64,000 nt of DNA, from assembly GCA_947496235.1 (NCBI GenBank), contig CANMCE010000001.1:496001-560000 (forward strand), in the 5' to 3' direction. The first letter of the stretch is position 1, and each line of letters opens with the position of its first letter. The position numbers and the translations under genes are program-made. Under the pieces are notes generated by a model. The model saw only the letters and a program-made list of their open reading frames with translations. It did not search any database and was not told the DNA's origin. Shown here one piece after another: positions 27,649 to 59,962 of this stretch. This DNA is from an uncultured Glaciecola sp. GTDB lineage: Bacteria; Pseudomonadota; Gammaproteobacteria; Enterobacterales; Alteromonadaceae.

Positions 27649-29235
27649 TTATTGTTCTCTGGTAGCGGTAAAGGTGATATCTGGATATCTTTCCTGAGCA
27701 AGGGATAAATTCACCATGGTAGGTGCAATATAGGTTAGATTATCTGCACCATCTATGGCTAAATTCACTTCTGCTTTACGTCTAAATTCATCCAGTTTTT
27801 TCTCGTCGCCATATACCCAACGAGCCGTACTAACATTAACATGTTCATACAATGCATCTACGTTATACTCAGATTTTAAACGTGCTACCACCACATCAAA
27901 CTGAAGTACACCTACCGCACCTACAATGAGGTCATTATTGATTAATGGCCGAAATACCTGCACTGCACCTTCTTCAGATAATTGAATCAAGCCCTTTAAT
28001 AATTGCTTTTGTTTTAAAGGATCTTTGAGACGAATGCGTTTGAATAATTCAGGCGCGAAGTTTGGAATACCTGTGAAACTATAGCTTTCCCCTTGAGTAA
28101 AGGTATCGCCTATACGCATAGACCCATGATTGTGTAAGCCAATAATATCACCTGCGTAAGCTTCTTCTAGCAGCGCCCGGTCGCCGGCTAAAAATGTCAG
28201 CGCATCTGAAATTCGCACATCCTTGCCTATTCGAGAATGGTGAAGTTTCATGCCCTTTTCATATTTACCTGACACTATGCGGCAAAACGCTATACGGTCA
28301 CGGTGTTTCGGATCCATGTTCGCTTGAATCTTAAACACGAAACCACTGAATTTTTCACTGTTAGCGTCAACCTCTCCCGCATCAGTAGCTCTTCCTTGGG
28401 GCTTGGGTGCCCAAGTGATTAACCCGTCAAGCATGTGGTCTACACCAAAGTTACCTAGTGCAGTACCAAAAAATACTGGGGTTAACTGACCTTCCATGAA
28501 CATTTCTTTGTCAAATTCGTTTGACGCACCTAACACAAGCTCTAGCTCATCTCTAAGCTGGCCCGCTAGGTCGCTACCTACAGCAGAATCTAATTCAGGA
28601 TTATCAAGTCCTTTCACAATGCGCACTTCTTGTATCAGATGCCCTTGGCCCGATTGATACAGGTAGGTTTCGTCACGGTGTAAGTGATAGACCCCTTTAA
28701 ACGATTTGCCGCAACCGATTGGCCAAGTGATTGGCGCACACATGATATCAAGCTCAGTTTCTACTTCGTCTAACAAAGCCAGCGGATCACGAATATCCCT
28801 GTCTAGCTTGTTCATGAAGGTAATTATGGGTGTATCTCTCAAGCGAGTAACTTCCATTAGCTTGCGAGTACGATCCTCAACCCCTTTTGCCGCATCAATG
28901 ACCATTAAACAAGAGTCAACTGCGGTCAAGGTTCTGTAGGTATCTTCGGAGAAGTCTTCGTGCCCAGGAGTATCTAGTAAGTTAACCAAGTGGTCTTTAT
29001 ATGGAAACTGCATGACAGAGGTTGTGACAGAAATTCCCCGTTCCTTCTCCATCTCCATCCAGTCTGATTTGGCATGCTGGCCAGATTTTTTACCTTTAAC
29101 CGTACCAGCTACCTGTAATGCTTGTCCGAATAACAATACTTTTTCGGTAATCGTGGTTTTACCAGCATCCGGGTGCGAGATGATAGCAAAGGTCCTTCGC
29201 TTATTGATTTCATTAAGAAAATCTTGGTTTGCCAT
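27649..29235 (-). CDS. prfC: Peptide chain release factor 3 (ICE insertion target)
   Basis: The 528-residue GTPase recycles RF1/RF2 after peptide release. G1 is [10 protein letters not shown]3 is DTPGHEDF and G4 is NKLD. The protein is full length and starts [20 protein letters not shown]391 ICEs integrate in the 5' end of prfC and supply a replacement 5' end and promoter. Here an SXT-type ICE end begins immediately upstream, so the first codons are probably ICE-derived and the gene a functional hybrid. The exact core site cannot be placed without the other junction. Confidence 0.96.
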
Positions 29236-29491
29236 GTATAAATTCTTTTAGTTTGTACACGGATTTGTACACACTTTTGGAAGTACTCTATTTTCAGTTC
29301 TTCGCTTGTCAAATCCGTCGTGTTAATCGTAATTGGCCGCTATTTTCGCTGATCTTGACTTTATAAACAATCAATGGTTATCTAATCGGTTACCATTTAC
29401 TCTCAGCGTGCGCCAATGCTCAGTTGTAGCTGTTTGCAATCGTTGCTTCTTCAGCTCATGAACAACTGTGGCTAAACCACAAATTCCTTCG
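29236..29491. other. ICE end with predicted att junction between prfC and setR
   Basis: This 256-bp gap holds no gene. It joins prfC to setR exactly as at the setR-side end of SXT/R391-family ICEs; the recombined core should lie at or just inside the prfC start (about 29100-29260). It contains two direct copies of TTTGTACAC (29252-29260 and 29264-29272) and a - strand promoter-like pair. The exact 17-bp-class core cannot be marked because the other ICE end is outside the window. Confidence 0.65.
29285..29312 (-). promoter_or_regulatory. Candidate ICE-borne promoter for prfC
   Basis: On the - strand TTGACA (29307-29312) is followed after 16 bases by TAGAGT (29285-29290), about 50 bases before the prfC ATG. 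The -35 is perfect, the -10 matches 4 of 6. ICEs of this family are known to replace the prfC promoter on insertion. Confidence 0.45.
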
Positions 29492-30139
29492 CTACCAGAA
29501 ATCGATGATAGCTTGTCGTACTACACCGATGATGGTGCAGTTGCCGTTGATCGGTATTGCAGGGTATTGGGGGTTCAAAGGTTTTAGGTACTTCTGTTCA
29601 CCATCAATAACTAACTGCTTAAAGGTTGCTTCTTTCGAATCATCCAAACGCGCAACAACCAATGAACCTGAAGAGTAAGGTAATTCAGGATCAACAACGA
29701 TCACTGCTCCCTCAGGTATGGATTTTTTTCCGCTTGGATTTTCCATACTGTCGCCTTTTACGCGAAGTGCGAAACAACCCTCATGTGCTTTCCCTGTGAC
29801 TTCACGCCACTCCTCAGCATCTTCATGGGCAAATCCCTCCGCTATTTCAGTCCAATCACCGGCCTGAACCCAGTTAATGAGAGGAATTCTTCCCTTAATG
29901 TCAGGCCCAACTTCTACATTACCGACCCCCAAGCCAATCTCGCCATCACCTGTGGCGAGCCAATGAGCATTCACGCGAAGCGCCTCCGCGATCTGCATGG
30001 TGTAACGAGACCTAGCCGATTTACCAGAGCAAATCTGGCTGATCGACTGCTGTTTGATACCAATGCGACGAGCCAACTCAGACTGAGTCACCCCAGTAAG
30101 CTGCAAGGCATGGTTTAGTCGTTCGGATAAAGTTTTCAT
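29492..30139 (-). CDS. setR: SetR, LexA/CI-type repressor of the SXT/R391 ICE
   Basis: The 215-residue protein matches SetR in size. Residues 1-60 form a helix-turn-helix (TQSELARRIGIKQQSISQI) and the C terminus is a peptidase S24 domain. The self-cleavage bond is Ala93-Gly94 (VQAGDW), with catalytic Ser131 (GDSMENP) and Lys174 (EATFKQ), spaced as in lambda CI. RecA-stimulated cleavage after DNA damage relieves repression of setCD and hence ICE transfer. It is divergent from the Cro-like gene across four operators. Confidence 0.93.
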   Translation of the reverse strand: MKTLSERLNHALQLTGVTQSELARRIGIKQQSISQICSGKSARSRYTMQIAEALRVNAHWLATGDGEIGLGVGNVEVGPDIKGRIPLINWVQAGDWTEIAEGFAHEDAEEWREVTGKAHEGCFALRVKGDSMENPSGKKSIPEGAVIVVDPELPYSSGSLVVARLDDSKEATFKQLVIDGEQKYLKPLNPQYPAIPINGNCTIIGVVRQAIIDFW

Positions 30140-30150
30140 AAGCCCGAATT

Positions 30151-30247
30151 CTACAAATAAAACTGTAGCCTTTCAACAATTTTAACTGTTGACTTATCTA
30201 CAGTTTAAACTGTAACACTCAATCTTGTAACAGTTATTATTGTAACA
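30151..30247. promoter_or_regulatory. SetR/Cro operator array, four 16-bp sites
   Basis: Four dyads fit WACARTTNNAACTGTW: 30152-30167 (TACAAATAAAACTGTA), 30175-30190 (AACAATTTTAACTGTT), 30199-30214 (TACAGTTTAAACTGTA, a perfect palindrome) and 30229-30244 (AACAGTTATTATTGTA). Start-to-start distances are 23, 24 and 30 bp. The array lies between setR and the Cro-like gene, as the SetR operators of SXT do, and controls both divergent promoters. Confidence 0.85.
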
Positions 30248-30256
30248 GGAGACGGT

Positions 30257-30508
30257 ATGGAAGTGTTCAACACGACACAAAAACATCTCCGCCGTGCCAT
30301 TGACTTGGTCGGCGGGCAATCAGCATTAGCACGAGCCATCAACTCAAAACAGCAAAACGTCTGGTTTTGGTTGAATAAATCAGGGCGTGTTCCCGCTGAA
30401 TTCGTTTTACCCATCGAACAAGCTACGCAAGGACAAGTAACCCGATCTCAGTTAAGACCGGACATCTACCCCGAATGCCCAAGCGAGCTGAAAGCCAGTA
30501 ACCAGTAG
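30257..30508 (+). CDS. Cro-like repressor of the ICE
   Basis: This 83-residue YdaS/Cro-type protein has the helix-turn-helix GGQSALARAINSKQQNVWFW and the following VLPIEQAT helix. It is the first gene of the rightward operon facing setR, so it probably opposes SetR at the shared operators in a CI/Cro-like switch. RBS AGGAGAC precedes ATG 30257. Confidence 0.85.
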   Translation: MEVFNTTQKHLRRAIDLVGGQSALARAINSKQQNVWFWLNKSGRVPAEFVLPIEQATQGQVTRSQLRPDIYPECPSELKASNQ

Positions 30509-30563
30509 GATTAAGGGCAAGTAATGGTCAGCATTTTACGTAAACACAAAAGCGAGTACCTCC

Positions 30564-31433
30564 ATGCGTGATTATGGCAAGGTCTATACCCGCTTTTGGC
30601 TAAAGCAAAATGTTTTGTCCTGGAGTGACTCAGCGAAGTTGCTAGGACTGTATTTGCTTACATGCCCGCATTGTAATTTGCTTGGCTGCTTTCGATTGCC
30701 GATTGGTTACGTTGCTTCTGACTTGAACTGGGATGAGCAACAGGTTGCCAAGGCTCTAAATGAGTTAGAACAAGATCAGTTCCTCATTCGTTGCGAGGAA
30801 TCCGGTTGGACTTTGATTCGGAGCTTTCTGAAGCACAACCCAATCGAAAACCCAAACCAAGGTAAGGCAGCCTTTCGGTTGCTTAAAGATGTACCTGCCG
30901 ACTTCATTGGTATGGCATCGCTTTTGAAATCACTTGCCGCTTTTCAAGCTCGGCTACCAGAAGAATTTTCATCATTGTTTATGCCTGATGGCAACCCGGC
31001 AAGGGACTCTCAACGGTCGGATGACTCTGAGAGAAGCAATAAACCAACAGTTAAAACTGTTGACCACATACAGTTTGAAGACTTCTGGGATGTACAAATA
31101 CGCAAAGAAAAAAAAGCGAAAGCCAAAGAAGAATGGCTACGCATGGGCCTCAATGAAGACCATGAACTCGCCTTGGAAGTGCTAACACGCTGGAAAGAGC
31201 AACGAGACAACCGATTGCAGTATCAAGATCGGACTAAGACCCCTATGCCACATAACTGGCTTTTAAACCGGCAATGGGAAGACGAGTACGTTCGCATTGA
31301 TGAAGTACAGCAATCATCGACGAGCCTAAAGGGCAGCAATCACCAATTGAATATTGAAGAAAGCAATCGCCGCATTGCTGAAAGCTGGGCCGGACCAGGT
31401 ATTCGGGAGGTTCGTTCAAGTGCAGGAGGTTGA
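30564..31433 (+). CDS. Replication-module protein with winged-helix N terminus, ICE-encoded
   Basis: The 289-residue protein starts MRDYGKVYTRFWLKQNVL. Its first 100 residues (ALNELEQDQFLIRCEESGWTL split across the motif) look like the winged-helix domain seen in phage replication and DnaT-like proteins. The C-terminal half has a conserved FWDVQIRKEKKAKAKEEWLRM helix and ends TPMPHNWLLNRQWEDE, a C-terminal block found in phage-type replication proteins. Its role in the ICE is unknown. It is part of the early cro-setDC operon. Confidence 0.6.
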   Translation: MRDYGKVYTRFWLKQNVLSWSDSAKLLGLYLLTCPHCNLLGCFRLPIGYVASDLNWDEQQVAKALNELEQDQFLIRCEESGWTLIRSFLKHNPIENPNQGKAAFRLLKDVPADFIGMASLLKSLAAFQARLPEEFSSLFMPDGNPARDSQRSDDSERSNKPTVKTVDHIQFEDFWDVQIRKEKKAKAKEEWLRMGLNEDHELALEVLTRWKEQRDNRLQYQDRTKTPMPHNWLLNRQWEDEYVRIDEVQQSSTSLKGSNHQLNIEESNRRIAESWAGPGIREVRSSAGG

Positions 31434-32082
31434 TAAACGCGAGTTTGCTGAAGTTTGGGGAGCAGCTTGGGCCATGTATGGCAAAAGCGTATCACCACAA
31501 TTGCTATCCATCGCATTTGAAGCCCTTCGTGCTTACAGCATTGAAGAAGTGCGAATCGGTCTGACTCGGCATATTCAATCCCCGGATACTGGGCAATTTT
31601 TTCCAAAGCCCGCTGACGTCATCAAGCATATCGATGGCAACTCTGGCTCAAGAGCCATGGTTGCTTGGAACAAAGTTGACAAGGCTGTTCGTCAGGTTGG
31701 CGCTTGGACATCCGTGATGTTTGACGATGCGTTTATTCACCGCGTTATTTCAGACATGGGGGGATGGGTTGAACTCTGCAAGGTTGACGACAGGGAATAC
31801 CCCTTTAAGCAAAAAGAGTTTTTAGCACGCTACCAGACTTACTTGCTCCGGGACGAAGTGGGTGAATACCCAAGGCTATTACAGGGTATTGCAGACCATC
31901 AGAACCAGCAAAAAGGATTTGATATGCAAGCGCCGGTTGCCGTGGGCGACTGGTCAAAAGCGGCACAAGTTTATACGAGAGGCATCGCCGACTTTAGCGC
32001 AGTGCCATTAAAAAGAATAAGCCCGAAAGCCATTCAGGCGCTTCTCGGAAATCAATTAGAGGACAAAAATGAAAACGATTAA
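31420..32082 (+). CDS. ICE protein of unknown function, DUF6475-like
   Basis: I place the start at GTG 31420, which has GGGAGG eight bases upstream; this gives 220 residues beginning VQEVDKREFAEVWGAA (first residue Met in vivo). The frame is open further upstream, to a TTG at 31354. FFPKPADVIKHIDG and VAWNKVDKAVRQVGAW resemble phage replication accessory proteins of the DUF6475 type. It overlaps the preceding gene by 14 bp and the following gene by 14 bp, showing tight coupling. Function is not known. Confidence 0.65.
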   Translation: MQEVDKREFAEVWGAAWAMYGKSVSPQLLSIAFEALRAYSIEEVRIGLTRHIQSPDTGQFFPKPADVIKHIDGNSGSRAMVAWNKVDKAVRQVGAWTSVMFDDAFIHRVISDMGGWVELCKVDDREYPFKQKEFLARYQTYLLRDEVGEYPRLLQGIADHQNQQKGFDMQAPVAVGDWSKAAQVYTRGIADFSAVPLKRISPKAIQALLGNQLEDKNEND

Positions 32083-32617
32083 AGCAAAAACCATTGCCCT
32101 AGTGATAGCCATGTCCGCAAGCACTTCAGTCTATGCGTTTCCGGGCTATCAGTGGGAAAAAGCAGCAAAAAGTGTTGGTATTGATCCAGTCATGCTCTAC
32201 GCCGTTGCCTTGGCTGAGTCGGCCTCACATCGAGGTCTTAACATGACCAGTCCATGGCCATACGCAATTCGCAATGGTTCAAACGCAACCTACGCCAAAT
32301 CTAAGACAGAAGCGGAGCAACTGTTAAACCAAGCACTGCAAGAGACTGAAAAATACCAGCTCGATATTGGCCTTATGCAAATCAATTTGCATTGGCATGG
32401 GCATCGAGTGAGCTCAGCAGCAGAACTGCTAGACCCCATCACCAACCTTACTGTCGGCTCCAGTATTTTGGCCGAAGCAATCAAGTCTTCACCTAACGAT
32501 TTAGAGCTTGGCATAGGCCGCTATCACAGTTGGAACGAAGAGCGTGCGCGCTGGTATAGGCAAAGAGTGCTTTCTATCTATCGCAATATTTTACATGAAC
32601 TGGAGGTCCGTCAATGA
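32069..32617 (+). CDS. Exported lytic transglycosylase-like protein of the ICE
   Basis: The 182-residue protein has a signal peptide (cleavage near VYAFPG) and a lysozyme-like domain with VALAESASHRG (catalytic Glu position), DIGLMQINLHWHG and GIGRYHSWNEERARWY. Such enzymes open peptidoglycan locally for conjugation machinery. Its place in the SetR-controlled early operon, rather than in the tra operons, matches SXT-family ICEs. It overlaps setD by four bases. Confidence 0.8.
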   Translation: MKTIKAKTIALVIAMSASTSVYAFPGYQWEKAAKSVGIDPVMLYAVALAESASHRGLNMTSPWPYAIRNGSNATYAKSKTEAEQLLNQALQETEKYQLDIGLMQINLHWHGHRVSSAAELLDPITNLTVGSSILAEAIKSSPNDLELGIGRYHSWNEERARWYRQRVLSIYRNILHELEVRQ

Positions 32618-32913
32618 CAACCAATCAACAAGACTTCTATCAATTAAATTTGGCGTACCTGCACGCAGCACGCGAATTGGCACGCATTGATCCGCAAGAG
32701 GCTGTCTTGCGCTTTGGACTTACACGCGATGTGGTGGATGCACTGATTAATGCCGGTGTTGACGACCTGCAACGAGTGGCGACCTCATCATTCATGCTGT
32801 TTCAACCAAGGGGTAACCAAAGCCAACTGATTGAGATGGTGAAGAGCAAAGGCACAGGTATCCCAAGAATCGCTTATTTATTATCAACCCTAAACAACAA
32901 GGGGGATGCATGA
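32614..32913 (+). CDS. setD: SetD, FlhD-like activator subunit
   Basis: This 99-residue protein resembles FlhD: helical, with DFYQLNLAYLHAARELARID and AVLRFGLTRDVVDAL. SetD forms a complex with SetC that activates the transfer and integrase genes of SXT/R391 ICEs. It overlaps both neighbours by four bases, so SetD and SetC are made in step. Confidence 0.9.
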   Translation: MTTNQQDFYQLNLAYLHAARELARIDPQEAVLRFGLTRDVVDALINAGVDDLQRVATSSFMLFQPRGNQSQLIEMVKSKGTGIPRIAYLLSTLNNKGDA

Positions 32914-33443
32914 TTGATAACCTGTCCAAAAGTGAGCTGTTTACCCGAGCCTCGCTGCTTATTAAATACGGATTTAGAACAACCATTATCGCGCTAGATA
33001 CAGGTTTGCCAATCCACATTATCAGAAGGCTGCACAAAGAAGTGACTGGCAAGTCACCTTGTCCTGGTCAATTGCCAGAATCTGATGCCATCGTTAAAAG
33101 CAGAAGAGCATTAGTTGAAGGCTCTCTGCTGATGGCGCTTTATGTCAATATTGGTGGTGATAATGTCTACAAGCAATTAAATATCGATGCTTTGATGAAG
33201 GCTTACGATGCGTACTTGGTTGCAAGAGAAGAAGCAGATCTTCCAGCTGAGATCCCCTGGAAAAAACTGACCATCAATGAAGGTTGGGTTCTAGCTCGTG
33301 ATTTAAGATCACAGCTTGCATCCTTACACCGGTGTCGATGCGGCAGTCTGTATTTGACGGTATCTCAACAGCGCATTCAGCTTAAATGTCCTGTGTGCGA
33401 GATTATGGCCGAGCAAACCACTAGAGCACTTTTTGAGAACTAA
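32910..33443 (+). CDS. setC: SetC, FlhC-like master activator of ICE transfer
   Basis: The 177-residue protein has FlhC features: an N-terminal LIKYGFRTTIIALDTGLPIHIIRRLHKE (helix-turn-helix, split across the motif) and a C-terminal zinc site with Cys142, Cys144, Cys160 and Cys163 (RCRCG ... CPVC). With SetD it switches on the ICE transfer operons after SetR is removed. It is the fifth of the overlapping genes begun by the Cro-like gene. Confidence 0.92.
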   Translation: MIDNLSKSELFTRASLLIKYGFRTTIIALDTGLPIHIIRRLHKEVTGKSPCPGQLPESDAIVKSRRALVEGSLLMALYVNIGGDNVYKQLNIDALMKAYDAYLVAREEADLPAEIPWKKLTINEGWVLARDLRSQLASLHRCRCGSLYLTVSQQRIQLKCPVCEIMAEQTTRALFEN

Positions 33444-33500
33444 CATACTGATGCATGATTTGATTGGGCACCGCCCGTGCACTTTGAGAGTACTAAGAAG

Positions 33501-33932
33501 ATGACAAACTTACTTAAATCTTTACCAGCACGCTGCTGGTTTATATCACTGGGGCTTTTTCTGGCGACTTTGGCAGCGGCTCATTTTTTTCCATCAGAAA
33601 TATTTACGGCATCTGCCAAGTTAGCGGCTTTGCCATTTCTGATTTGCACCATCGTTTTTTTCAGCTACTTGGGATTCAAAGCAACTGCTAGTCCTATCGG
33701 CCTTATAACCATCACCACTATGTGTTTAGCAATCGCATATTGGCAAGCGAGTTGGACAATTTTATGTGTCGGTTTAGCTTTCTTAGGCTTAAGCGGACTA
33801 ATCCATTTATTTCAAAGACAACTGAAAGATACCGGTCGAGAACTAAGCCTGAGCGAAAAAAAATATTGGTACTGGGTAAACGAATTTGCAGACGGTCGCT
33901 CATCTATCCTCCCCAAAAGGCCAAAAAAATAG
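33501..33932 (+). CDS. eex: Eex, entry-exclusion membrane protein
   Basis: From ATG 33501 the protein has 143 residues, the length of SXT/R391 Eex. It has three or four hydrophobic helices (about 10-30, 38-60, 65-85 and 88-105) and a basic cytoplasmic tail (RQLKDTGRELSLSEKKYW). Eex in the recipient blocks redundant transfer by recognising TraG from the donor. It lies between setC and traG, pointing toward traG. An in-frame ATG at 33477 is eight codons upstream. Identity rests on position, length and topology. Confidence 0.78.
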   Translation: MTNLLKSLPARCWFISLGLFLATLAAAHFFPSEIFTASAKLAALPFLICTIVFFSYLGFKATASPIGLITITTMCLAIAYWQASWTILCVGLAFLGLSGLIHLFQRQLKDTGRELSLSEKKYWYWVNEFADGRSSILPKRPKK

Positions 33933-33953
33933 CCAGCCCATCACTAGCTGGCT
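33931..33953. terminator. Hairpin between convergent eex and traG
   Basis: AGCCAG (33931-33936) pairs with CTGGCT (33948-33953), overlapping the eex stop codon. The T-run is weak (ACCTTCTGTTTTT). Confidence 0.55.
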
Positions 33954-33964
33954 ACCTTCTGTTT

Positions 33965-36900
33965 TTAGTTCCTTCCTGAAGCCTGGTTATAGGCCCTAAT
34001 ATCGATCAAGTTGTTCTGAGCATAATCTCCAGCAAGGGATGCATTTGAGATCACTGCAATCTGCTTATCCACAAATGCTTTATCTTCTTCGGACACACTG
34101 TCGGGGATGTAAGCACCTCTCTCATCTTTTTGACGATACTCATTTAGCATTTGCTCCCTTAGACCAAGCATTTCAGGCGACCAACTCGATGAGTCTTCAG
34201 AGTTGAAAACGCGCCCCGCCAAACCTTCATTGAAAGCTTGAGCGAACACTTGACTTTGAATCGGGGTCAATCCCATTCTCTGCCCTTCGCTGTATGCTTC
34301 CTGTTTAAAATCATCGGCATACTGTTCTAAGAACTCACCATATCGATTGTTAACTGCCGCACCGAATGCCCCCGCCAACATGGCTTCAGACTTAGTACCC
34401 CAGTTTACTTCGGAGGCATACTGCGAACTCGATCCACTGTATGCATCATTAAACGCCGTCAATGGGTTTTCCAAAGAGGTTCCGGCGTCAACGGCTGCTT
34501 TTAAGCCATCCCAGGTTGATTTACTGGCCACCGTTGCATTGTGCAAGAAACCTCGTGAGCTAGGGTCTTCAAGTGCTTGCTCCTTGTAACTCTCATAGTC
34601 TTCGCCAAAGTGATTCAAGGTATGCAGTGCTGCATCAGTATGCTTGCCACTGAAGTCACCAATAGCACTGGCGCTGTTGAAGAACATTTCAGCACCAGAA
34701 ACTCCGCTATCATCAGCCATAATGCGAGATCGCCACTGAGAGCCAGCTTCACTGTTTAGTCCAGATTGATAGGTACTTGTGTCAGAAACTACGGCCTGTT
34801 GGGCTTGTTGTTGATGCGCATTTAGTTGTCCATCAACACCAGACAAATTAGTTTGGTAAGCTGATTGAGCTGCGTTGAACTGAGTTTGAACAGTTGCAGC
34901 ATCCTCGTATCCGCCCAATACACCCGATTCCACTTGGCTTTGAGTGCCACCAAAAGTAGGTGCAGTTGATGACAAGCCTTCATTAGAGCGTGGCTGAATA
35001 GATCGTAAATCGGCTGCGGTAGCCATGGCCATAACAGTCATTGCTGCTTGATAGTCATTGTCTCGTTCAGCGGGCGTCGAGGAGTTGCTATAGGTTAAAG
35101 ACTCCATAGCTGCGGCTACATACGCCTGATTATCATCAGGTAGCAAGCGCTGATACATTGGAAGGTTTTCACGTAATCGGTTACCTGCTTCAACATGCTG
35201 GTTCATATAGCGACCTAAATAATCCATGACTTCAGGATTATCCGCTGCTAATCGAGTTAACGTCGCACCATCCGTGTTCCTTTGTCCTGATAGACTGTAG
35301 CTGGCCTGATCAAGCTCACTAAAGCGGTTTGATGCCGTGATAACGTCTTGTGCTGAACTCTGAAGTGACTGATAGTCTTGATTAGACAACGACATCTCAA
35401 CGCCAGAGCGTCTTGAATCTGAAAGGTCTTTAACCATTGCATCGCGATACTCAGCACGTCGTGAATCACTTGATGCCAAGCTTTGCATCTCACCAGTGAG
35501 CGTATTTGCGGTCGTTGACCGAGAACTGCCCTCTGATGACTCAACTTGGCCACTAAAGTTACCACCTAAATCCAAGCCTGCTCGTAACCGTGATATTTTT
35601 GGCACTCTTGATGATTCAGGCTTATCCACTCCTGGTAGGTTGCCTTGTGGGGAGTCATTCCCCCCTGAACCAAGTAATCTTCCCAAGAACCCTTTATCTG
35701 CTACTTCTTTATCACCGGTATTTGTAATGGTTCCATCTCCACCGACCCTAAGGCCTCCCGATAACACGCCAGATACCAAGCCACGTACAGCGTCTTTTTT
35801 ATCGTCTCCGAAACCATACCGTGTTTGCAGGTCATCAGTAACCTGATTAACAACGGCGCTAGATGCGGAATTAGAAGAACCGATCTGACGTCCAACCGAA
35901 GAAAGGTTGTCGTAACTTAGCTTTTCACCAAAGGTTCGACTCATGGTATTGCCAACCTGACGGCTAAAGGCTTGAGTTGCCTGAGTCATGGATTCTTTTG
36001 CAGAGCCGACCATTGAACCCACTGCGTTTCCGACAGAGAAACTGCTTAGTAGGTTTGACGCGCCGGTCATAGCAGAACCAGTGAGGGCTGAATTTTGGAA
36101 CATTGACTGTGATTGCATGACCGGAGCATTTTTCGCGACATCTGGACTTGCCATTTTTTCATCAATGGCATCACCGTTTTGAAGACGCCCAGCCAAGTGG
36201 GTTGCAGTTATTGCTGAGCCATACACGAGCATGAGCGAAATCGCCGGAACACTCGACGCCAACATGCCGCCAGTAGCTATCCAGGTTTGCAGCACTGAAT
36301 CCATCTGCCTCATCCCAGCAAAAGATGGCACGTCTGTACCTGCAAAGGCATCAAGAGCCGACATTTTCCCTGCAACGGTTAAATGAATATACAGGTTAAT
36401 GATGGCCATGACAGGCATCCAAAGTTGAATCCAAAGCAGGATTAACAAGTACTTCCCGGCCATTCGCATCCCGATTTGGCCGAGGGCTATCACAAAGGCC
36501 ATCAAAGGGGTGATGGCGTAAATGAAACCCTCAAAAAACGTCATCATCGGACGAACGATACTTTGGAACAGGGTCTGCTCCGCCGCCCATTGCGTATTGC
36601 GCTGCTCAATCGCTTGGTTAACCATAACGGCTGCGGTGAAAGCTTGATCATCCATATATTTGCCCGTCACGCTTTGCTCATAAATAGGCAAAAGCACCGA
36701 CGCGGTCATGTACTCTTGGGTGTTAACCGAAGCCAAACCAAGGTTATTCAGTGCATTTCGGATCACGTCATCAGTGTCCGTTGCTGACGAAGTCCCCAAT
36801 GAGGCCGACAGAACCTGTTTAAGCCTTGGAATGAAGGTTGATTCTGTCATGAGTTTCAGTTGGCTGTAGGCATCAGTGCAGTCCAGATCGCTACTGCTAC

Positions 36901-37534
36901 CATTGAGCATGATGCGTGTGCCATAAATGCGCGAATCAAACCTAATCGCAGTCATTGGGTTAGGATCACTCAGCACCTGATCGAGGTTCTTTTGACCAAT
37001 GTCGATACCAATCAAGGTGCACTCTTTGATGTAGTTAAACCACGATTGCTCGATGTCCGAGCCGCCGACACGATTTGCATCACCCAACCCAGAGCGATCC
37101 ATCACCTGTTTTCTCACTTTAATCAGTGACTGTAAACTGGATGCAAAGCCGTATTCCGTCATGGCGGGAGTTGAGAACGCCGTTTCAAACAATCGCGTGA
37201 TTTGAAAGCCAACAGTCGAAATCGTACTACCTGCGGCAGCAACACCGATGGGCACATTATCAACCACTCGAACTTGCCCCGTGTACGCATCCTCAATGCT
37301 CACTCGGGTACTGGGTCCAAACATGGTTGCAAAGACTAGCCATGAGACTAAAACGTGCTGAAAGTTAATCCCACGGCCACCTTGCATTAAGGCCTGAACA
37401 GAGACCATCAATACCCCAATGAGCAAGCCAATCCGAACCATTGAAGTAAAGTCGCCTGTACCAGTGATCATCGCGACAGCGTTCAAGACCTGCTCTAAAA
37501 ATGCCGAATCCCCGATGGAATAGATCTCCCACAT
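33965..37534 (-). CDS. traG: TraG, mating-pair stabilisation and entry-exclusion target
   Basis: The 1189-residue protein has the length of SXT/R391 TraG. The N-terminal 450 residues carry membrane helices (about 28-75, 335-385 and 415-445); the long C-terminal part is polar, rich in Ser, Gln and Gly, and helical. TraG stabilises mating pairs and is the donor-side target of Eex. The three exclusion-specificity residues, recalled as 606-608, read Thr-Gly-Asp here, unlike PGE in SXT and TDD in R391. It lies three bases downstream of traH and converges on eex. Confidence 0.93.
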   Translation of the reverse strand: MWEIYSIGDSAFLEQVLNAVAMITGTGDFTSMVRIGLLIGVLMVSVQALMQGGRGINFQHVLVSWLVFATMFGPSTRVSIEDAYTGQVRVVDNVPIGVAAAGSTISTVGFQITRLFETAFSTPAMTEYGFASSLQSLIKVRKQVMDRSGLGDANRVGGSDIEQSWFNYIKECTLIGIDIGQKNLDQVLSDPNPMTAIRFDSRIYGTRIMLNGSSSDLDCTDAYSQLKLMTESTFIPRLKQVLSASLGTSSATDTDDVIRNALNNLGLASVNTQEYMTASVLLPIYEQSVTGKYMDDQAFTAAVMVNQAIEQRNTQWAAEQTLFQSIVRPMMTFFEGFIYAITPLMAFVIALGQIGMRMAGKYLLILLWIQLWMPVMAIINLYIHLTVAGKMSALDAFAGTDVPSFAGMRQMDSVLQTWIATGGMLASSVPAISLMLVYGSAITATHLAGRLQNGDAIDEKMASPDVAKNAPVMQSQSMFQNSALTGSAMTGASNLLSSFSVGNAVGSMVGSAKESMTQATQAFSRQVGNTMSRTFGEKLSYDNLSSVGRQIGSSNSASSAVVNQVTDDLQTRYGFGDDKKDAVRGLVSGVLSGGLRVGGDGTITNTGDKEVADKGFLGRLLGSGGNDSPQGNLPGVDKPESSRVPKISRLRAGLDLGGNFSGQVESSEGSSRSTTANTLTGEMQSLASSDSRRAEYRDAMVKDLSDSRRSGVEMSLSNQDYQSLQSSAQDVITASNRFSELDQASYSLSGQRNTDGATLTRLAADNPEVMDYLGRYMNQHVEAGNRLRENLPMYQRLLPDDNQAYVAAAMESLTYSNSSTPAERDNDYQAAMTVMAMATAADLRSIQPRSNEGLSSTAPTFGGTQSQVESGVLGGYEDAATVQTQFNAAQSAYQTNLSGVDGQLNAHQQQAQQAVVSDTSTYQSGLNSEAGSQWRSRIMADDSGVSGAEMFFNSASAIGDFSGKHTDAALHTLNHFGEDYESYKEQALEDPSSRGFLHNATVASKSTWDGLKAAVDAGTSLENPLTAFNDAYSGSSSQYASEVNWGTKSEAMLAGAFGAAVNNRYGEFLEQYADDFKQEAYSEGQRMGLTPIQSQVFAQAFNEGLAGRVFNSEDSSSWSPEMLGLREQMLNEYRQKDERGAYIPDSVSEEDKAFVDKQIAVISNASLAGDYAQNNLIDIRAYNQASGRN

Positions 37535-37537
37535 TAT

Positions 37538-38926
37538 CTATTCCCCCAGCGCCGTAGATTTAACGGTGTAATAACGCTGTTTGCGAATGGTCTGAATCAC
37601 CTGATTAAAATGCGCCAGCAATTCTTGCTCTGAGCCGTATCTTCGCTGCAACGCAGCGTACTCCTCATTGATTTGACGACGTGCACGTTCAAGGTCTTCT
37701 GTTAATAACTTCGCATAGGCATGATCTTCCACACCGGAGGTACTTCTAGCTGCATTGAGCATGTCTTCAACCAATGCTCGGGCCATTTCAACAGCAATAA
37801 ATGGCGCAGCTCTTGAAGCAAACGACCTAGCAGCCCCTTCATTTAATGCAGAAAGTGTTCGAATCATGCCGCCAATGCTTGCAGGAGCCGAGGTCATAAA
37901 AGCCTTTTCGGTGGTGCTAGCAGCCCCTGTATTTCGAGCAAACTTAAAAATAATGCCGTTACTAGAACCTGTACCAAGAAGTAAATTTTCGACCTGAGTT
38001 GATAACCCGGTTAGGGTCACGTTAGTGATTGTCGGATTTAGACAGCCGTCTTGTGTCACTGTGTCACATCGGTACATAGCGACGTTACCGCCATGAATTA
38101 GATGCTCAATAGTCACTTTATTGCCATTCAGTCTGGTCAGTTTTGGGGCTTTACCTTGGCCATCAGCGGCATTCGCTAAATCACCAACGATGATTGAACC
38201 AGTCACCGACATAACTGCTTCAAGAAAACGGTCATCCCCCGATGCAAACCAGCTTGATGCCGAGTGACGTTTCAGTGCTCGCCAGACCAAATTACCTTTA
38301 ATTGTTCTGTTTACATCAGATGCCGCGACACTCGAAGCGTTCTCATATGGGTTCTTACCATTGGATTCACTCCAACTGGTAAAAACGTCACCAGCCCCTT
38401 TAAGTGAGCTCAACATGCTGGCTTCTGTTTGCCCCTTTTTACCAAAAGCAGCCAGGGTATCGTTCACGACTCCCTGAGCCATTTGACAGGAATTGCCGAA
38501 ATACTCGTTCAACTGCTGGATTTTCTTTTGCAAAGTCTCCATGTGCTGAGAGCATTTCTCACACATAGCACTGAGCGCCAATTGGAATGCATATCCCTTG
38601 GCGTTTGCAGCAACAGAGCGAAGTAATTGAACAAACTGATCCGCGTTAACAAATGACAAACTTCCAGCGAACATATCAATGCCGCCACAACCGGCTTGGA
38701 ATGACGGTGGTACCATAGAGACGAGGTTCTCGTTCATGATCCTGTTACGAACAACAACACTTCCGCCAGATATAACGCCACGCCGTTGACTCTCAAATAC
38801 GCCAGGCGCAGTGGTGTTGGTCATTGAACCAAACAACTGGTTCATCTCCTGTTGCAGGCTTGCTTGGCTCATAGACGAAAAACCAATCGCGCAGGCGATT
38901 AGCGATACTCGTAATACTTTTTTCAT
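37538..38926 (-). CDS. traH: TraH, type IV secretion and mating-pair formation protein
   Basis: The 462-residue exported protein has a signal peptide (MKKVLRVSLIACAIGFSSMSQAS is the first 23 residues, split at the cleavage region). It contains GCGGIDMFAGSLSFVNADQFVQLLR, diagnostic of the F-type TraH family, and a Cys cluster (MCEKCSQHM). It sits in the periplasm or outer membrane and serves F-like pilus assembly. It is between traF and traG, spaced by two to three bases. Confidence 0.93.
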   Translation of the reverse strand: MKKVLRVSLIACAIGFSSMSQASLQQEMNQLFGSMTNTTAPGVFESQRRGVISGGSVVVRNRIMNENLVSMVPPSFQAGCGGIDMFAGSLSFVNADQFVQLLRSVAANAKGYAFQLALSAMCEKCSQHMETLQKKIQQLNEYFGNSCQMAQGVVNDTLAAFGKKGQTEASMLSSLKGAGDVFTSWSESNGKNPYENASSVAASDVNRTIKGNLVWRALKRHSASSWFASGDDRFLEAVMSVTGSIIVGDLANAADGQGKAPKLTRLNGNKVTIEHLIHGGNVAMYRCDTVTQDGCLNPTITNVTLTGLSTQVENLLLGTGSSNGIIFKFARNTGAASTTEKAFMTSAPASIGGMIRTLSALNEGAARSFASRAAPFIAVEMARALVEDMLNAARSTSGVEDHAYAKLLTEDLERARRQINEEYAALQRRYGSEQELLAHFNQVIQTIRKQRYYTVKSTALGE

Positions 38927-38928
38927 CG

Positions 38929-39873
38929 TTATAACCCTCCTTGTGCACGCAGATAGCGAACAATAAACTCAGGGTCCTGTAATATTTTTTCGTTAAGCTC
39001 TTGGGCTGACATCGCGAGTGACACGCCGGGTTGAACAGGTCTGGTGGCATAGTAAGTTTGATCGTCAATCCAACCTGCTTGATGGGCTGCGAGAATGATT
39101 CGATTATTGAGTTCATCAAGGCTCATTGCACCTTGGCCAATCGGAGTAATGACGTTAGGCGGGTCAACTAAGAACACGGCAGGGACAGTCGTAACGGACA
39201 ATGATTGAGCTTGTCCTGAATCAACTTTGAAATTGGGAAACTCTCCACCCGGTAAAGGCAAGCCATCGACAGCAATAGCAAACACCTCGAAACCATAGTT
39301 CAAAACCATGGATTCGATGATAGGCGCTTGAGCATGGCAGTAAGGGCAATCCGAACGATAGAAGAAGAACAAGCCAGCCCGTTTTGCTACTTCACCTAAA
39401 GCAATATCTCGTTGAGCGCCAGCTTCTCGGTCCATCCGATTGGCAGCATAAGTCGCCAAGGGTCTGCGACTGATTTCATCCAAAACTGGATCGCCCATGA
39501 CCACCTGCTGACTAACATCAGCAAATAGTGATCCCTTATCCATCATGACGCGCTGAAGATACAGATAGGCTCTGACGTTCTCACTGGTCGGCTCATCAAT
39601 TGCCTTGTCCATGAACGACTGCATGTGCTCACGAAACCAGGCAGCACTGAAGGGCTTTAGCCCGCTCTGACTCGACTCTTCCGCACCATATTCCGGCTTT
39701 GTAAGCTCATCAGGCTGTTTAGGTTCAGGAATGATCTGATACCAAAACCAGCCTTCCTGACCACGCTGATAGAACGGTCCATCACTGGCATGGGCGGGCA
39801 AGATGAATAGAAAGAAAATAATGATTGGGATGGTCACCCATAGGATGAACCAAGGTAACAAAGGGGTTCTCAT
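38929..39873 (-). CDS. traF: TraF, thioredoxin-fold pilus assembly protein
   Basis: The 314-residue protein has an N-terminal signal or anchor (LWVTIPIIIFFLFILPAHAS region) and a thioredoxin-like domain with Cys176-Pro-Tyr-Cys179 (YRSDCPYCHAQAP) and a cis-Pro loop (VTTVPAVFLVDP). F-type TraF helps disulfide folding of pilus proteins. It is the first readable gene of the traFHG operon; DNA upstream of it is the known cargo hotspot of this ICE family. Confidence 0.92.
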   Translation of the reverse strand: MRTPLLPWFILWVTIPIIIFFLFILPAHASDGPFYQRGQEGWFWYQIIPEPKQPDELTKPEYGAEESSQSGLKPFSAAWFREHMQSFMDKAIDEPTSENVRAYLYLQRVMMDKGSLFADVSQQVVMGDPVLDEISRRPLATYAANRMDREAGAQRDIALGEVAKRAGLFFFYRSDCPYCHAQAPIIESMVLNYGFEVFAIAVDGLPLPGGEFPNFKVDSGQAQSLSVTTVPAVFLVDPPNVITPIGQGAMSLDELNNRIILAAHQAGWIDDQTYYATRPVQPGVSLAMSAQELNEKILQDPEFIVRYLRAQGGL

Positions 39874-39903: not shown

Positions 39904-40033
39904 CATGCTAAAGATCCCGGTAAGAGTGATTGGCGAGATAGATGAAGGAATCGTATGTGTTTCTGACGGTCGAAAGAAAATCGATAGGGATGATTCAGCC
40001 TATTCGGAGGGCGGTGCGTTACGAAAAACCTAA
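39904..40033 (+). other. Short open frame in the traF upstream gap, doubtful gene
   Basis: An ATG near 39905 opens a 42-residue frame (MLKIPVRVIGEIDEGIVCVS at its start) that ends at 40033, just before an IS relic. It is divergent from traF. I recognise no family; it could be a small ICE gene, or the truncated start of a longer one cut by the insertion. Confidence 0.3.
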
Positions 40034-40054
40034 AATCGTACTAAATAAGTGATC

Positions 40055-40813
40055 CTAATTGTGCTCCACTTTCATGAGGCCATGCCCGCCACCAGGGAAT
40101 GGGGAAGCATGGTTCATAAAGTACTTAACCCGCTCCATCAACTTCCAGATGTTTTTGCACTGATGGTTTCGGGTAACGGTTTCATGTAGTGCGTGCCACA
40201 ACTGCTCTATTTTGTTGACCCAAGGTGAGTAAAACGGCTGAAACAACAAGATAAACTTTGGGTTTTTCTTGAGCCAAGCTTGAGTCTTTTTACTCTTGTG
40301 GATAATGAGCGTAATCGTTTGGACTCGTCTGTACTGTCTTTTGAGCAATTTCAGCATTGAAAGAAATAGCATAGAATCTTTGCTTGAACTGGCGACATAA
40401 CTGACTTCCCCGTTCCTGTGTGTAGCGCACCTGCCAAGTATCGTTTGCTCTTCTGTCCCGGCGTTGTCACTCGTTTTTCATGGCCTTTATGCATCCAATC
40501 TGCGCCGATTTTTGGATTGAGATGGATATCAACTTCATCTTCATAAAATACGGGATGGTTTATATTGCAGCGTTTCAAAGCTGCCTTAATTTCCGCAAGC
40601 TTCTCATCTTTATGAGGATCTTTGATATGCAAGGTGGGAGCGGCTCTACGCCAAACAACGCCAAGTTTAGGCAACCACCGCCGAATCGTTGAGGGATGAA
40701 CCTGCAGCGAAAATAAGCGGTTAACCTCAAGAGCTATTAATTCAGTACTCCAGCGGGAACGATGGTATCCAAGCTCTTGGGGGGACAATTGAAGCAGTAG
40801 TTTGAATACACTA
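40055..40813 (-). pseudogene. IS630-family transposase, truncated and frameshifted
   Basis: Two overlapping - strand frames make one IS630-type transposase. The upstream part has HPSTIRRWLPKLGVVWRR and the DDE core YEDEVDIHLNPKIGADW; the downstream part has FYSPWVNKIEQLWHALHETVTRN. They are separated by a frameshift near 40405-40412 in a short G run. The N terminus is cut at the TA target of the IS5-family insertion at 40812, and its missing part is not found on the far side of that element, so a deletion or rearrangement occurred. Confidence 0.8.
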
Positions 40814-40926
40814 GAGCGTGTTGACTTTGCGGTATAAAAAGTAAACAGCAATTGGGTCGGTTATAATGATTTCGCCAAAAAACAACATAACCGCGAATTT
40901 AACTCCCAAATGCCGAGACTCATGCT

Positions 40927-40936
40927 AACAGATGAT
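40927..40936 (+). repeat. Target site duplication, left copy, of the IS4-family element
   Basis: AACAGATGAT at 40927-40936 is repeated exactly at 42320-42329, flanking the inverted repeats of the inserted element. Ten bases fits the IS4 family. Confidence 0.92.
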
Positions 40937-42319
40937 CATACGTAGGATCTTAAGGAAATTAGGGGTTGAATGCATGTTCTAAATCTGATCAGATGTTTAT
41001 CGCCAAAAAAACCTTCTGAAACAGATTTGAGAACATGCATAAAAATAATACCGAGCTTGCGAAGATAACGAAAGTCCTGAATGAATTTAAAATTAACGAT
41101 ATCGGAAAAAGCAGTGGATTTTGCTGCCGACAACGGGTCGTAAAGCCGTTTGAATTGGTAATGTCGTTACTTACGGCACTCGGCGATAAGTCTGTGGATA
41201 GCATCAGTGACTTGCACCGGTATTTTACAGGATTGACCTTTAGTGATGTACAGTACAAGCCGTTCCACAACCAGCTCAGTAAACCTGAATTTCGTGACAT
41301 GATGAAGCGGTTGGTAGCGATGGCGATGGGAAACTGGCAGCAACAGATATTAGGAACTGACGTTAATCTATCGATGTTTGAGCAAATCGTGGTGCAAGAT
41401 GGGAGTTCGTTTGCGGTGCACGATAGCCTGAGTGACGTGTTCAAAGGGCGCTTTACCACTATCAGCCCAGCCGCGGTAGAGATACATGTGAGCTGGGATA
41501 TGTTAAGCAGCCAACCGCATGCTGTGTCAGTAAGTGCCGATAGTAAAGCGGAATATGATTACCTGCCGCCAGCGGCCTCACTAGGGAATAAGCTGTTTTT
41601 AGCCGATAGAGGCTATTTCAAACTGTCCTACTTACGTGACATTCATGCGTCAGGTGGGTTTTATACCGTGAGGGCAAAGACAACGAGTAATCCACTTGTA
41701 GCAGCGGCTTACACTGCGAAGGGCAAGCGCCTGAAGCGATTTAAAAGCGTTAGCCTTAAAAAGGTAAAGGCCCATATTCGACGTAGTGAAGTGGTCGATA
41801 TGGATGTGGAAAATCCACACGGCTACCGCATGATAGCCAGTTGGCCGAAAGACAAAAACGAACCCACGTACTGGGTGACTAACTTGCCTCGGTCTGAGTA
41901 CCCAGCCAACAGCATCATCAAACTCTACGGTTTACGCTGGCAAATTGAACTGCTATTTAAAGAATGGAAATCCTACTGCAACCTGCGCAAATTCAATACA
42001 CGTAAGGCCAGTATGATGGAAGGTCTGATTTAGGTGAGTCTGTTAGCGCTGCTGGTAAAGCGACGAATAGGCTTTAGTATTCAACAGCTAAAAGGAATAG
42101 CAATATCAAGTTTTATGGTGGCAAAAAACACACAAGGTTGGTTTTACAAATTAATGGAATCGATAATCCACTTCGACCAGTCAACATTAATACAAACATG
42201 GAACTGGGCAGTGGATTATTTGGCAAGATACGCCAAAAGGGCGCATCCCGATAGAGACAGGGAGAGCGGGCGTTTAGCGCCCAGCCTGACACCGATTATT
42301 TCTTAATGTCCAACGTATG
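40937..42319 (+). mobile_element. IS4-family insertion sequence, 1383 bp
   Basis: The terminal inverted repeats are CATACGTAGGATCTTAAGG (left) and CATACGTTGGACATTAAGA (right, reverse complement). A perfect 10-bp target duplication flanks it. It carries one transposase gene with an internal stop. The exact duplication suggests a recent insertion. Confidence 0.92.
41035..42306 (+). pseudogene. IS4-family transposase with internal amber codon
   Basis: One frame runs from 41035 to 42306 but is broken by TAG at 42031-42033. The first part (332 residues) has VVQDGSSFAVHDSL and LFLADRGYFKLSYL (DDE acidic residues), and the Y-(2)-R-(3)-E-(6)-K region LYGLRWQIELLFKEWKS. The second part continues in the same frame with SLLALLVKRRIGFS. 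In homologues the codon after EGLI is usually Trp, so TGG to TAG is the likely change. The element is probably unable to move on its own unless the stop is read through. Confidence 0.85.
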
Positions 42320-42329
42320 AACAGATGAT
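42320..42329 (+). repeat. Target site duplication, right copy, of the IS4-family element
   Basis: AACAGATGAT matches 40927-40936 exactly. One copy is needed to restore the host transposase frame. Confidence 0.92.
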
Positions 42330-43092
42330 AGCTGGAAATTGCTATCGAGAATCATGTATTTAACAGGTCGAATTTATAATAAACCTGAACACCGAATGAC
42401 ACTTGAAGGTATTTTGTACCGGATGCGAACGGGCATTCCGTGGCGGGATTTACCTATAGAGTTTGGCGAGTGGAGCGCGGTATTCAGACGTTTTAATTTA
42501 TGGTCTAAGAAGGGCGTGCTGACTGAGATTTTCCAGTTTTTATCCCGCATTAATGATCCACAATGGTTGTTCATTGATGGCAGTATCGTTAAAGCTCATC
42601 AGGACGGGACGAACATAAGTGCTCAGGCTCAACAAGCCATTGGGAAAAGTCGCGGCGGTAAATCAACAAAAATACATTTAGCCGTTGATAGCGGAGGCTT
42701 ACCTGTCTACTTTGAGTTGTCAGGAGGACAGGCTCATGATGTCAGTCATGGTCAATCTCTGGTTGAATCATCGCCTTATTCAGAAGTAGTCGTTGCCGAC
42801 AAAGGCTATGACAGTCAAGCTCTACGTGAACTAGTGAGCCGCCGCAATGCGAAGCATGTCATCCCAAGAAAAGGGAACAGTAAAACAGGTAATACCGATA
42901 TTGATTGGGCGATGTATCGCTATCGTCATTTGGTCGAAAATGCATTTTTGAAAATCAAAAAGTATCGAGCCGTCGCGACTCGATACGACAAATTAGCCAG
43001 AAACTACGGCAGCGTGGTGGCATTGGCTTTCGCACTTATGTGGTTACCAATGTGGATTGATTAGAAAACATACAGCAAAGATCAACACGCTC

Positions 43093-43260
43093 TAAAGTAA
43101 AACGATTATTTTCATTCACCAGAAATCCAATAACCAGCACATAGAAAATTATGTGGAACTAAAAATCCTAAAATCACTGTTCCAACATAAGCAACTACGA
43201 CAATGATTGCTTCTGTTTCAATCCCTATCGTAATGCCTGCGAGCTAACCGAACACAGCAT
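43093..43260 (-). pseudogene. C-terminal fragment of an unidentified membrane protein
   Basis: The - strand frame ending near 43121 (TGA in TCACCAGAAAT) reads LAGITIGIETEAIIVVVAYV then GTVILGFLVPHNFLCAGYW: hydrophobic, with no start and upstream stops. It is cut at 43092 side by side with the IS5-family end. I do not recognise the family. The rest of the gap to 43446 holds no gene that I can support. Confidence 0.4.
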
Positions 43261-43446
43261 ACAGCGCTATTTACTTTGACCAATTCACAATTTTTAATGA
43301 AGCATCTTGAATCTAATACGCCATTGCTAAAAGAGGTCTCGTTTTTTGATTAGGCAAAACTGTTGTTGCGACACCATAGATTACTAATGATAGAACGATC
43401 TACATATTAGGCACCGTGAATTCAACCCCGAAATACATACTAGCAA

Positions 43447-48790: not shown

Positions 48791-48967
48791 GAAGGTATTA
48801 CAGAGGCAAACCATCAATCGTACCGAATAAAGTGGTAAACGGGGAATTTACTGTAGTAACGCCTAATTGTTATTGACAAATAGATATTATCTTCAGTAAA
48901 CCTAGAATCCGGCATTTACTTGGATGTCATAAACAGAGCATTAATCTGTGACATGGGCAACCAAAAT

Positions 48968-49956
48968 TGACCAACCCAGTTAAGCTACTTTTTTAAATTT
49001 TTTCATGTCCACATCATATTGATTTGGACTCCTGTAATCAAGATACGAGTGCAGTCGCTCAGGATTATAAAATGTTGTGATGTAACGCAGTATTTCTCGC
49101 GTACATCATAACGAATTTGGTAATGTTTCCAATGCACCAGATCTTGCTTCAAGCTACCGAAGAAACTCTCAACTACACAATTTTCCCAACAATCAACTTT
49201 ACGACTCATGCTGCCAACAAATTGTTGTCCTCAAAGCACGCGTCGATAGTCTGCACTAGCGTATTGGCTGTCGCAATCCGAATGGACAACCAATCCAGCT
49301 TTTGGATTTCGCCGCCATATCGCCATCGTTAGCGCATCACATACCAGTTTTGCTTTCATCCTTGACCCCATACTCCATCCAACGACTTGTATCGAGTACT
49401 GGTCAATAACAACTGCCAAATATAACCAGCCTTCTTGTGTCCAGATATAGTTTATATCCTGCACATAAGCTAGATTGGGTGTCCAGCACATTTTCTAATA
49501 CAGGCAGTGTGTGATTGCTGTTTGTGATAACTTTGTATTTCTTCTTGTAACGGACCTGCACACCTGCCTCTTTCATCAGTCTGTGTGTAAGACGCCTACC
49601 GATAGGGTAGCCCAAACAATTCAGTGCTTTTTGCATTCGTCGGCTGACGTAGCTATGCTCACAGGCTTTCACTATCCTGTGCACCCATTTCTAGCTATTT
49701 CAACTGCGCTTTAAGCTTTCTGCCTGCTCTGGCGTCAGTTTGCCGTTCCCTCAGAATGCTTGGCCGTCATCATCTTGACCCGACGACCAATATTTTGGTG
49801 ACTCACATCCAACATTCAGGCGGCTTCAGAGCACGTTTGACCTTGATCTAGCACCGGGCTCGCAGCATCCAGTTTAAATTCTTTCGTATATTGCTTTCTT
49901 CCGGCCATTTACATTCTCCAGCTAAGACTTCATTATATCCTTAACTAGCCTGGTCA
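48968..49956 (-). mobile_element. IS3-family insertion sequence, decayed
   Basis: The ends read TGACCAACCCAGTTAAGC (left) and TGACCAGGCTAGTTAAGG (right, reverse complement). Inside, an orfA start (MAGRKQYTKEFKLDAAS, from about 49907) and orfB pieces lie on the - strand: RMQKALNCLGYPIGRRLTHR, then NLAYVQDINYIWTQEGWLYLAVV, then NCVVESFFGSLKQDLVHW. Several stops and frameshifts break it, and at 989 bp it is shorter than a complete IS3 element. No clear target duplication is seen. Confidence 0.78.
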
Positions 49957-53240: not shown

Positions 53241-53303
53241 AGTCGTTCCCCTCTTTTCTCTTCCAGAAACCTGCCATAAATGGTTTCAACTAGGAGTATT
53301 TAC

Positions 53304-54996: not shown

Positions 54997-55108
54997 GCGT
55001 TTTCTACCTATGTGAACGATGTATTAAACCCTTTACTTCTATTCCAACCTAAGCGGAATAGAAGGAGGCTTCATCGTTGTGCTGGATCAATTCGGTCGTC
55101 GTTTTCCG

Positions 55109-55786: not shown

Positions 55787-55795
55787 GTAATTCTC

Positions 55796-56833: not shown

Positions 56834-56845
56834 GTTCGACTCCTC

Positions 56846-58003: not shown

Positions 58004-58004
58004 A

Positions 58005-58421: not shown

Positions 58422-58438
58422 GATCTATCACTCCTTAT

Positions 58439-58453
58439 TAGACCGGTCGACTA
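58439..58453. promoter_or_regulatory. Operator copy 1 (TAGACC type) upstream of ohr
   Basis: TAGACCGGTCGACTA, in the 80-bp gap before the ohr gene on the - strand. It shares TAGACCRGTCNNCTA with 59963-59977 and 60045-60059. Arms TAGAC and CTA resemble the reported NemR box (TAGAC...GTCTA). Confidence 0.65.
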
Positions 58454-58501
58454 TTTGATGATAAAAAAATACCTCGGGGGCATCTTTTGGCGCGTCACCA
58501 T

Positions 58502-59893: not shown

Positions 59894-59962
59894 AATTAAA
59901 TCCTTTCGCGTGGGGCGCGTTTGGGTTGTAAATCTCGAGTTTATTCATAACCCGCAAACTAC

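Follow-up and report, generated by a model that had tools for sequence, protein, structure and literature searches.

A Probable Non-conjugative Deletion Derivative of an SXT/R391 Integrative and Conjugative Element in prfC of an Uncultured Glaciecola sp.

The DNA analyzed here (the window; 64,000 nucleotides) comprises positions 496001–560000 of contig C1 (CANMCE010000001.1) in the 55-contig, 4.42-Mb draft genome GCA_947496235.1 of an uncultured Glaciecola sp. It contains the host gene prfC and, integrated in the 5′ end of this gene, one end of an element of the SXT/R391 family of integrative and conjugative elements (ICEs). The remainder of the element lies to the right of the window, and its features are given in extended coordinates, which carry the window numbering on beyond 64000 as far as the end of the contig (91688). 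Comparison with ICE R997 of Proteus mirabilis (NZ_KY433363) revealed that a large block of transfer genes is missing at a single junction. The region most likely represents the right end of an SXT/R391 ICE that became non-conjugative through a deletion and is carried on an Alteromonadaceae chromosome.

Integration Site and Boundaries of the Element

Homology to R997 ends within prfC at the setR side. A second prfC start was found at the far side, from extended 88912; over 71 bp it matches the first at 82% identity, and the two have a 15-bp core in common. The prfC start at the expressed side is of the element type, as in the end of R997 and in G004, an ICE-bearing genome of the same genus. The displaced native start, MANANYLKEINK, lies beyond attL and then runs into element DNA. 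Given the shared core and the displaced native start, the element was delimited to 29165–88926 (59,747 bp from core to core). When the joined native flank was compared with the prfC loci of 11 relatives, it aligned only from about the prfC start. Synteny upstream of prfC was therefore discarded as uninformative, and it is the displaced prfC start that carries the argument for the integration site.

The element possesses an SXT-type integrase at the 5′ end of prfC, the setR/setC/setD module and the ssb/bet/exo recombination block that are expected of the SXT/R391 family. Int and Xis, both beyond the window together with attL, were 99 and 100% identical to those of R997, respectively, and the identities for ssb, bet and exo were 97.1, 100, and 98.8%. 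A first-pass annotation of the window had proposed the setR-side end of an SXT/R391-family element at prfC, and family, site and end were all right. As it had expected, the sequence beyond the window contains int, xis and another prfC 5′ end, which is truncated, and the outcomes that it had set against its own assignment were absent: the integrase is of the same family, and the 5′ end of prfC is distinct from the displaced native one. The element does not end at 29236, where the annotation had placed its limit, but within prfC at approximately 29165–29179. The proposal of an Alteromonadales host was also right, as G004 and the Ningiella ruwaisensis B66 record overlap by 13.9 kb without a difference, and this species is in the Alteromonadaceae.

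Deletion between traN and srpR

Along the element, the alignment to R997 passes from coordinate 46972 directly to 2240, and the two sides overlap by 12 bases, CTTTGGGTTAAT, a sequence present in R997 at 2229 and 46972 and only once in the element. The deletion joins traN to srpR, just upstream of int. The interval measures 44.7 kb in R997 and approximately 36.8 kb in the ICE of G004. For R997, the 89-amino-acid gene just upstream of int was equated with srpR as named in an excerpt of PMC4489591, and stbA with srpM. Among the 38 R997 proteins tested, 23 were found in the element, of which those of srpR and traN are cut, and 15 were missing, which were those of srpM, mobI, traI, traD, traL, traE, traK, traB, traV, traA, dsbC, traC, the signal-peptidase gene, traW, and traU. 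The region between srpM and mobI and the start of traN were also lost. The mating-pore set is incomplete, with traF, traH, and traG kept, traN cut and traLEKBVA, traC, and traWU absent. For DNA processing, mobI, traI, and traD are absent, and the absence of oriT is read from the loss of its region. We take oriT to adjoin mobI; with the mobI region deleted, the usual oriT of the family would thus be lost. As judged from its gene content, the element is unable to encode a relaxase, a coupling protein and most of a mating pore, and with these genes lost it is predicted to be incapable of self-transfer.

The first-pass annotation had also expected traI and traC; searches with G004 as the positive control found neither in the assembly, and the element is not a complete ICE. 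The srpM–mobI DNA, TraI and TraC had no match anywhere in the own genome, and traI–traC DNA matched there only along a 63-bp stretch at 79% identity, while G004 matched all four queries. A candidate match to the TraI_2 profile in the own genome was rejected as below the cut-off (20.6 versus 23.9 bits, 27 positions).

Several points weigh against a deletion derivative. The genome is a draft of 55 contigs, and the junction, which was found in no other genome searched, rests on one assembly. A 12-bp repeat is not rare, as R997 has 250 12-mers with direct copies more than 20 kb from each other, and the ICE of G004 has the exact 12-mer only at traN. The same draft state and single-assembly junction, together with the intact and highly conserved remaining parts, would suit a complete, self-transmissible SXT/R391 ICE whose tra block is missing through misassembly or a draft gap. 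However, the block is on no other contig, and the contig that holds the junction is 588 kb long and continues for about 5 kb beyond it, with no N in the stretch. Moreover, the genome is listed as 100% complete and 0% contaminated, and a 12-bp repeat would be too short to mislead a normal assembler. A complete ICE was rejected on gene content, and its concealment by the assembly is regarded as very improbable.

Exact matches to the junction elsewhere numbered 0 in the genome-contig database, from which the own genome may be left out. With a 701-bp junction query, the two halves were joined in none of 5426 Escherichia coli genomes (7 have them apart), none of 72,556 plasmid records (3 have them apart) and none of 12 other genomes of the genus, where G004 has the halves apart and 11 gave no match.

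The orphan genes traG, traH, traF and the rest of traN contain no stops, and their ratios of nonsynonymous to synonymous substitution (dN/dS) against R997 were 0.037, 0.025, 0.099, and 0.033, respectively, by a simple count; these ratios average over all of the history of the two lines, which for the most part precedes the deletion. Given that the orphan tra genes are free of stops and frameshifts, decay appears to have hardly begun and the deletion looks recent.

The int Promoter and Predicted Mobility

According to excerpts of PMC4344509 and PMC4489591, srpM, srpR and int are driven by Ps003, a SetCD-dependent promoter located between mobI and s003 within the mobI–srpM region, and these excerpts describe no other promoter for int; xis has a SetCD-dependent promoter of its own. 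They also report that the loss of R391 is greatly raised without traI or oriT, that srpMRC helps to retain R391 and that excision of R391 is undisturbed by deleting srpR and srpM. Thus, the promoter region, not these genes, is what matters for int. In the element, int keeps approximately 150 bp of upstream DNA, followed by the cut 5′ end of traN in the opposite orientation. Because the Ps003 region is deleted, int is probably silent or nearly so and the element locked in place, which would explain the persistence of a derivative without oriT, TraI and SrpM. What speaks against this is that a new promoter for int is possible; a promoter scan found 0 sites at the junction and also 0 in the R997 region expected to hold Ps003, and so has no power here.

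If int and xis were expressed, the element could be a working mobilizable island, which excises and is moved by a helper ICE, whether in trans or, as part of a tandem array at prfC, in cis. In favor of this, SetR, SetCD, Int and Xis are all intact, as are the two att sites, and SXT/R391 ICEs are reported to occur in tandem at prfC and to mobilize islands with oriT mimics (excerpts of PMC2786100, PMC4344509, and PMC4542580). However, no helper was found in the own genome by family TraI or TraC, and the junction was not found in the other genomes searched, unlike what would be expected of a spreading island. Moreover, the mobI–srpM region is gone with Ps003 and, if oriT lies where we take it to lie, with oriT as well. 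No oriT mimic was found in the own genome as a match to the R997 srpM–mobI region, a diverged mimic not having been searched for, and no tandem ICE was seen at this prfC site. A working island is therefore considered unlikely, and a locked deletion derivative is preferred.

The setR-side End and the Exclusion Group

The segment 29179–39967 formed a single unbroken 10.8-kb alignment to R997 with 95.4% DNA identity, and at this length and identity the sequence match is far beyond chance. Open reading frames (ORFs), profile searches and tblastn with R997 proteins recovered the gene order of the first-pass annotation, prfC, SetR, operators and Cro, followed by SetD, SetC and Eex and then traG, traH and traF, all at the claimed places. 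The gene prfC (27649–29235, − strand) is full length at 528 amino acids, as annotated, although its first codons are supplied by the element. The 15-bp attR core (29165–29179) recurs at the far end (extended 88912–88926). The repressor gene setR (29492–30139, −), with Peptidase_S24 and helix-turn-helix domains, encodes a protein 100% identical to that of R997, and the setR–cro operator region (30140–30256) has 4 differences in 117 bp. The Cro-like regulator (30257–30508, +) was 98.8% identical to that of R997 and matched PF15943 and, weakly, P22_Cro. The genes described earlier as replication-like are in fact core genes of unknown function, which we take to be s084 (30564–31433, +; 98.3% identity, no Pfam match) and s083 (~31420–32082, +; 98.2%; DUF6475, PF20081). 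Deletion of s082–s084 left SXT transfer unchanged, according to an excerpt of PMC2791158. Downstream are genes for a lytic transglycosylase (32069–32617, +; 98.9%; SLT), setD (32614–32913, +; 100%; FlhD family) and setC (32910–33443, +; 99.4%; FlhC family). On the opposite strand are traG (33965–37534, −; 98.5%), whose product has the 1189 amino acids stated in the first-pass annotation, traH (37538–38926, −; 98.9%; TraH Pfam) and traF (38929–39873, −; 94.9%; TraF Pfam).

Between setC and traG lies eex (33501–33932, +), whose product matched the EexR/EexS model (266 bits versus a cut-off of 200) and was 72% identical in amino acids to EexS of R997. The earlier length of 143 residues stands with the start annotated in R997 (33501); the longest eex ORF begins at 33477 and has 151 amino acids. 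At the DNA level, eex was 97.7% identical to eex of the G004 ICE. At residues 606–608, TraG of the element has T-G-D, where R997 and the ICE of E. coli ET734 have P-G-E. In an excerpt of PMC3850215, T-G-D marks the R group and P-G-E the S group; the element is thus predicted to be of the R exclusion group, and its Eex may exclude R-group ICEs.

Remaining Blocks and Variable DNA

The remaining blocks with homology to R997 lie in the extended region. The recombination block, from a primase-like gene to ssb (extended 66414–77816), was 97.0% identical to R997 in DNA. It is separated by variable DNA (extended 77817–83464) from traN without its first 151 codons (extended 83465–86703; 96.0%), which is followed by the end of srpR, int, xis and attL (extended 86692–88931; 97.2%). 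In this variable DNA are a HipBA-like pair, a gene for a TetR regulator and one for an oleate hydratase-like protein of the MCRA family. The HipB-like and HipA-like genes (locus L007 3–1621; extended 78003–79621) are between traN and the recombination block. In R391 and ICEMprChn1, hipAB is between attL and xis (excerpt of PMC5122569).

Hotspots were named by their flanking genes, as their numbering differs between papers. The hotspot between traF and the primase-like gene holds variable DNA from 39968 to the window end at 64000 and on to extended 66413, with no homology to R997 except for 128 bp. Transposase remnants occupy its traF side (39968–43400 and 48946–49984), including a broken IS630-like remnant of which 40395–40554 matched an E. 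coli IS630 gene, two further transposase genes and an IS3 remnant 84% similar to Alteromonas plasmids. They are followed by cargo rich in oxidoreductases (52251–62724 in the window and 4810–7356 in locus L006), with a G+C content of 51% over 50961–65000. By Pfam, the cargo encodes an aldo-keto reductase, two old-yellow-enzyme-like proteins, DJ-1/PfpI, zinc and iron alcohol dehydrogenases, OsmC, an aldehyde dehydrogenase, a glutathione S-transferase and LysR and TetR regulators. The aldehyde dehydrogenase (61759–62724) covers only profile positions 1–246 of 461 and is a cut or frameshifted copy. Parts of the cargo showed 74–82% DNA identity to replicons of Pseudorhodobacter, Roseovarius, and Pseudohalocynthiibacter and are suggestive of a source among the Alphaproteobacteria. 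Rfam searches of 39900–64000 gave 0 matches at gathering scores.

Survey of Related Elements

A survey with this Int as the query returned 54 loci; L079 (34% identity) was set aside because it is not of the SXT type. As the survey starts from int, elements without int are outside the sample. A complete int was found in 45 loci, 44 of which include at least 2.6 kb of upstream DNA, and srpM and mobI were both present in all 44; L057, the remaining one, begins 0.3 kb before int. Int is incomplete or broken in 8 loci. Three of these (L066, L067, and L077) are at contig edges, and in L076 int is split over two overlapping reading frames. In L069, L074, L075, and L078, homology breaks inside int within the contig, and these loci are possible further stranded derivatives; L074, from Idiomarina loihiensis SN11, has its cut int near traL–traA. 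A whole int without srpM and mobI was found in no surveyed relative, although probable stranded relatives exist.

SetR was found at an E-value of at most 1e-60 in 4 of 147 family genomes sampled, the own genome included. SXT-type int, srpM and mobI were also found in L068 and L063, on metagenome bins labeled Kordiimonas (Alphaproteobacteria) and SAR324, which reflects either a wider host range or a binning error. L021, in a genome of the same family (G015), has an element-type prfC start and a short second prfC fragment on another contig, and may carry an ICE too.

Proposed History and Significance

The element would have arrived as an ordinary, complete ICE, whose Int recombined attP with prfC. 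Its integration would have given prfC new first codons, and presumably also a promoter, and left the native prfC 5′ end beyond attL. Later, a single event between the traN and srpR copies of the 12-bp direct repeat would have removed the block, equivalent to approximately 44.7 kb of R997, with the genes for relaxase, coupling protein and most of the mating pore, mobI together with oriT, and srpM, which serves partition. Ps003 would have been lost in the same deletion, leaving int silent and excision blocked. SetR repression, R-type Eex exclusion, the HipBA-like pair, the cargo and SetCD control of xis and the bet/exo genes may still work, and SetR and SetCD should still respond to DNA damage. 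RecA and bet/exo form hybrids from tandem SXT/R391 ICEs, even non-transmissible ones (excerpt of PMC2786100), and an ICE arriving in tandem could acquire the cargo of this element. Tentatively, one deletion step might have turned an ICE into a locked resident by removing oriT/TraI replication and srpMRC partition, on which an excised element depends, together with the int promoter, so that it would no longer be excised and lost; SetR and R-type Eex would then guard the site against R-group ICEs, and a tandem S-group ICE could recombine with the element via bet/exo or carry it out.

Members of the SXT/R391 family at prfC in Alteromonas are already in print (excerpt of PMC5217437). Family, site and host group are thus known, and apart from its deletion the element is ordinary: it belongs to a well-known family, which the order of its host is known to carry. 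What is new is the deletion derivative. SXT/R391 ICEs have been well studied in their active state, and less so in how they become stranded. No naturally stranded SXT/R391 derivative stood out among the papers listed in the literature searches, as searched by titles and the starts of abstracts and with subscription journals mostly outside, and we do not claim that none is in print. With both att sites, an intact int, undecayed orphan tra genes and one junction, the element represents a clean end state. It offers natural tests of whether a derivative defective in replication and partition can persist owing to the loss of Ps003, and of whether there is any benefit in retaining only the repressor and exclusion genes.

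Comparison with Known Systems

The element shares with R997 its ends, regulation genes, eex–traG–traH–traF, recombination block, int and xis as well as their order, with DNA identities of 95–97% over four blocks. Different from the element, R997 has the 44.7-kb block, other cargo and S-type Eex/TraG. The ICE of G004 occupies the same prfC site and has the same core and nearly the same eex; however, it has all 38 R997 proteins tested, including those of traI, traD, traC, mobI, and srpM. Descent from the G004 ICE was considered but found no support, as the blocks outside eex were 95.7–97.9% identical to G004 versus 95.0–97.8% to R997, and G004 is therefore no closer to the element than R997.

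Cis-mobilizable elements (CIMEs) are not known to carry int, whereas the element keeps int, xis, its regulators and its exclusion gene. Similar to the CIMEs of Streptococcus thermophilus in an excerpt of PMC4542580, it is flanked by attL and attR and has no conjugation module of its own, and movement through accretion with a related ICE is theoretically possible. Finally, similar to the mobilizable genomic islands (MGIs) mobilized by SXT/R391 ICEs, it is a non-autonomous island under SetCD control; different from the MGIs, which according to an excerpt of PMC4344509 carry an unrelated integrase at yicC and an oriT mimic, it uses the SXT integrase and the prfC site, and its oriT region is gone.

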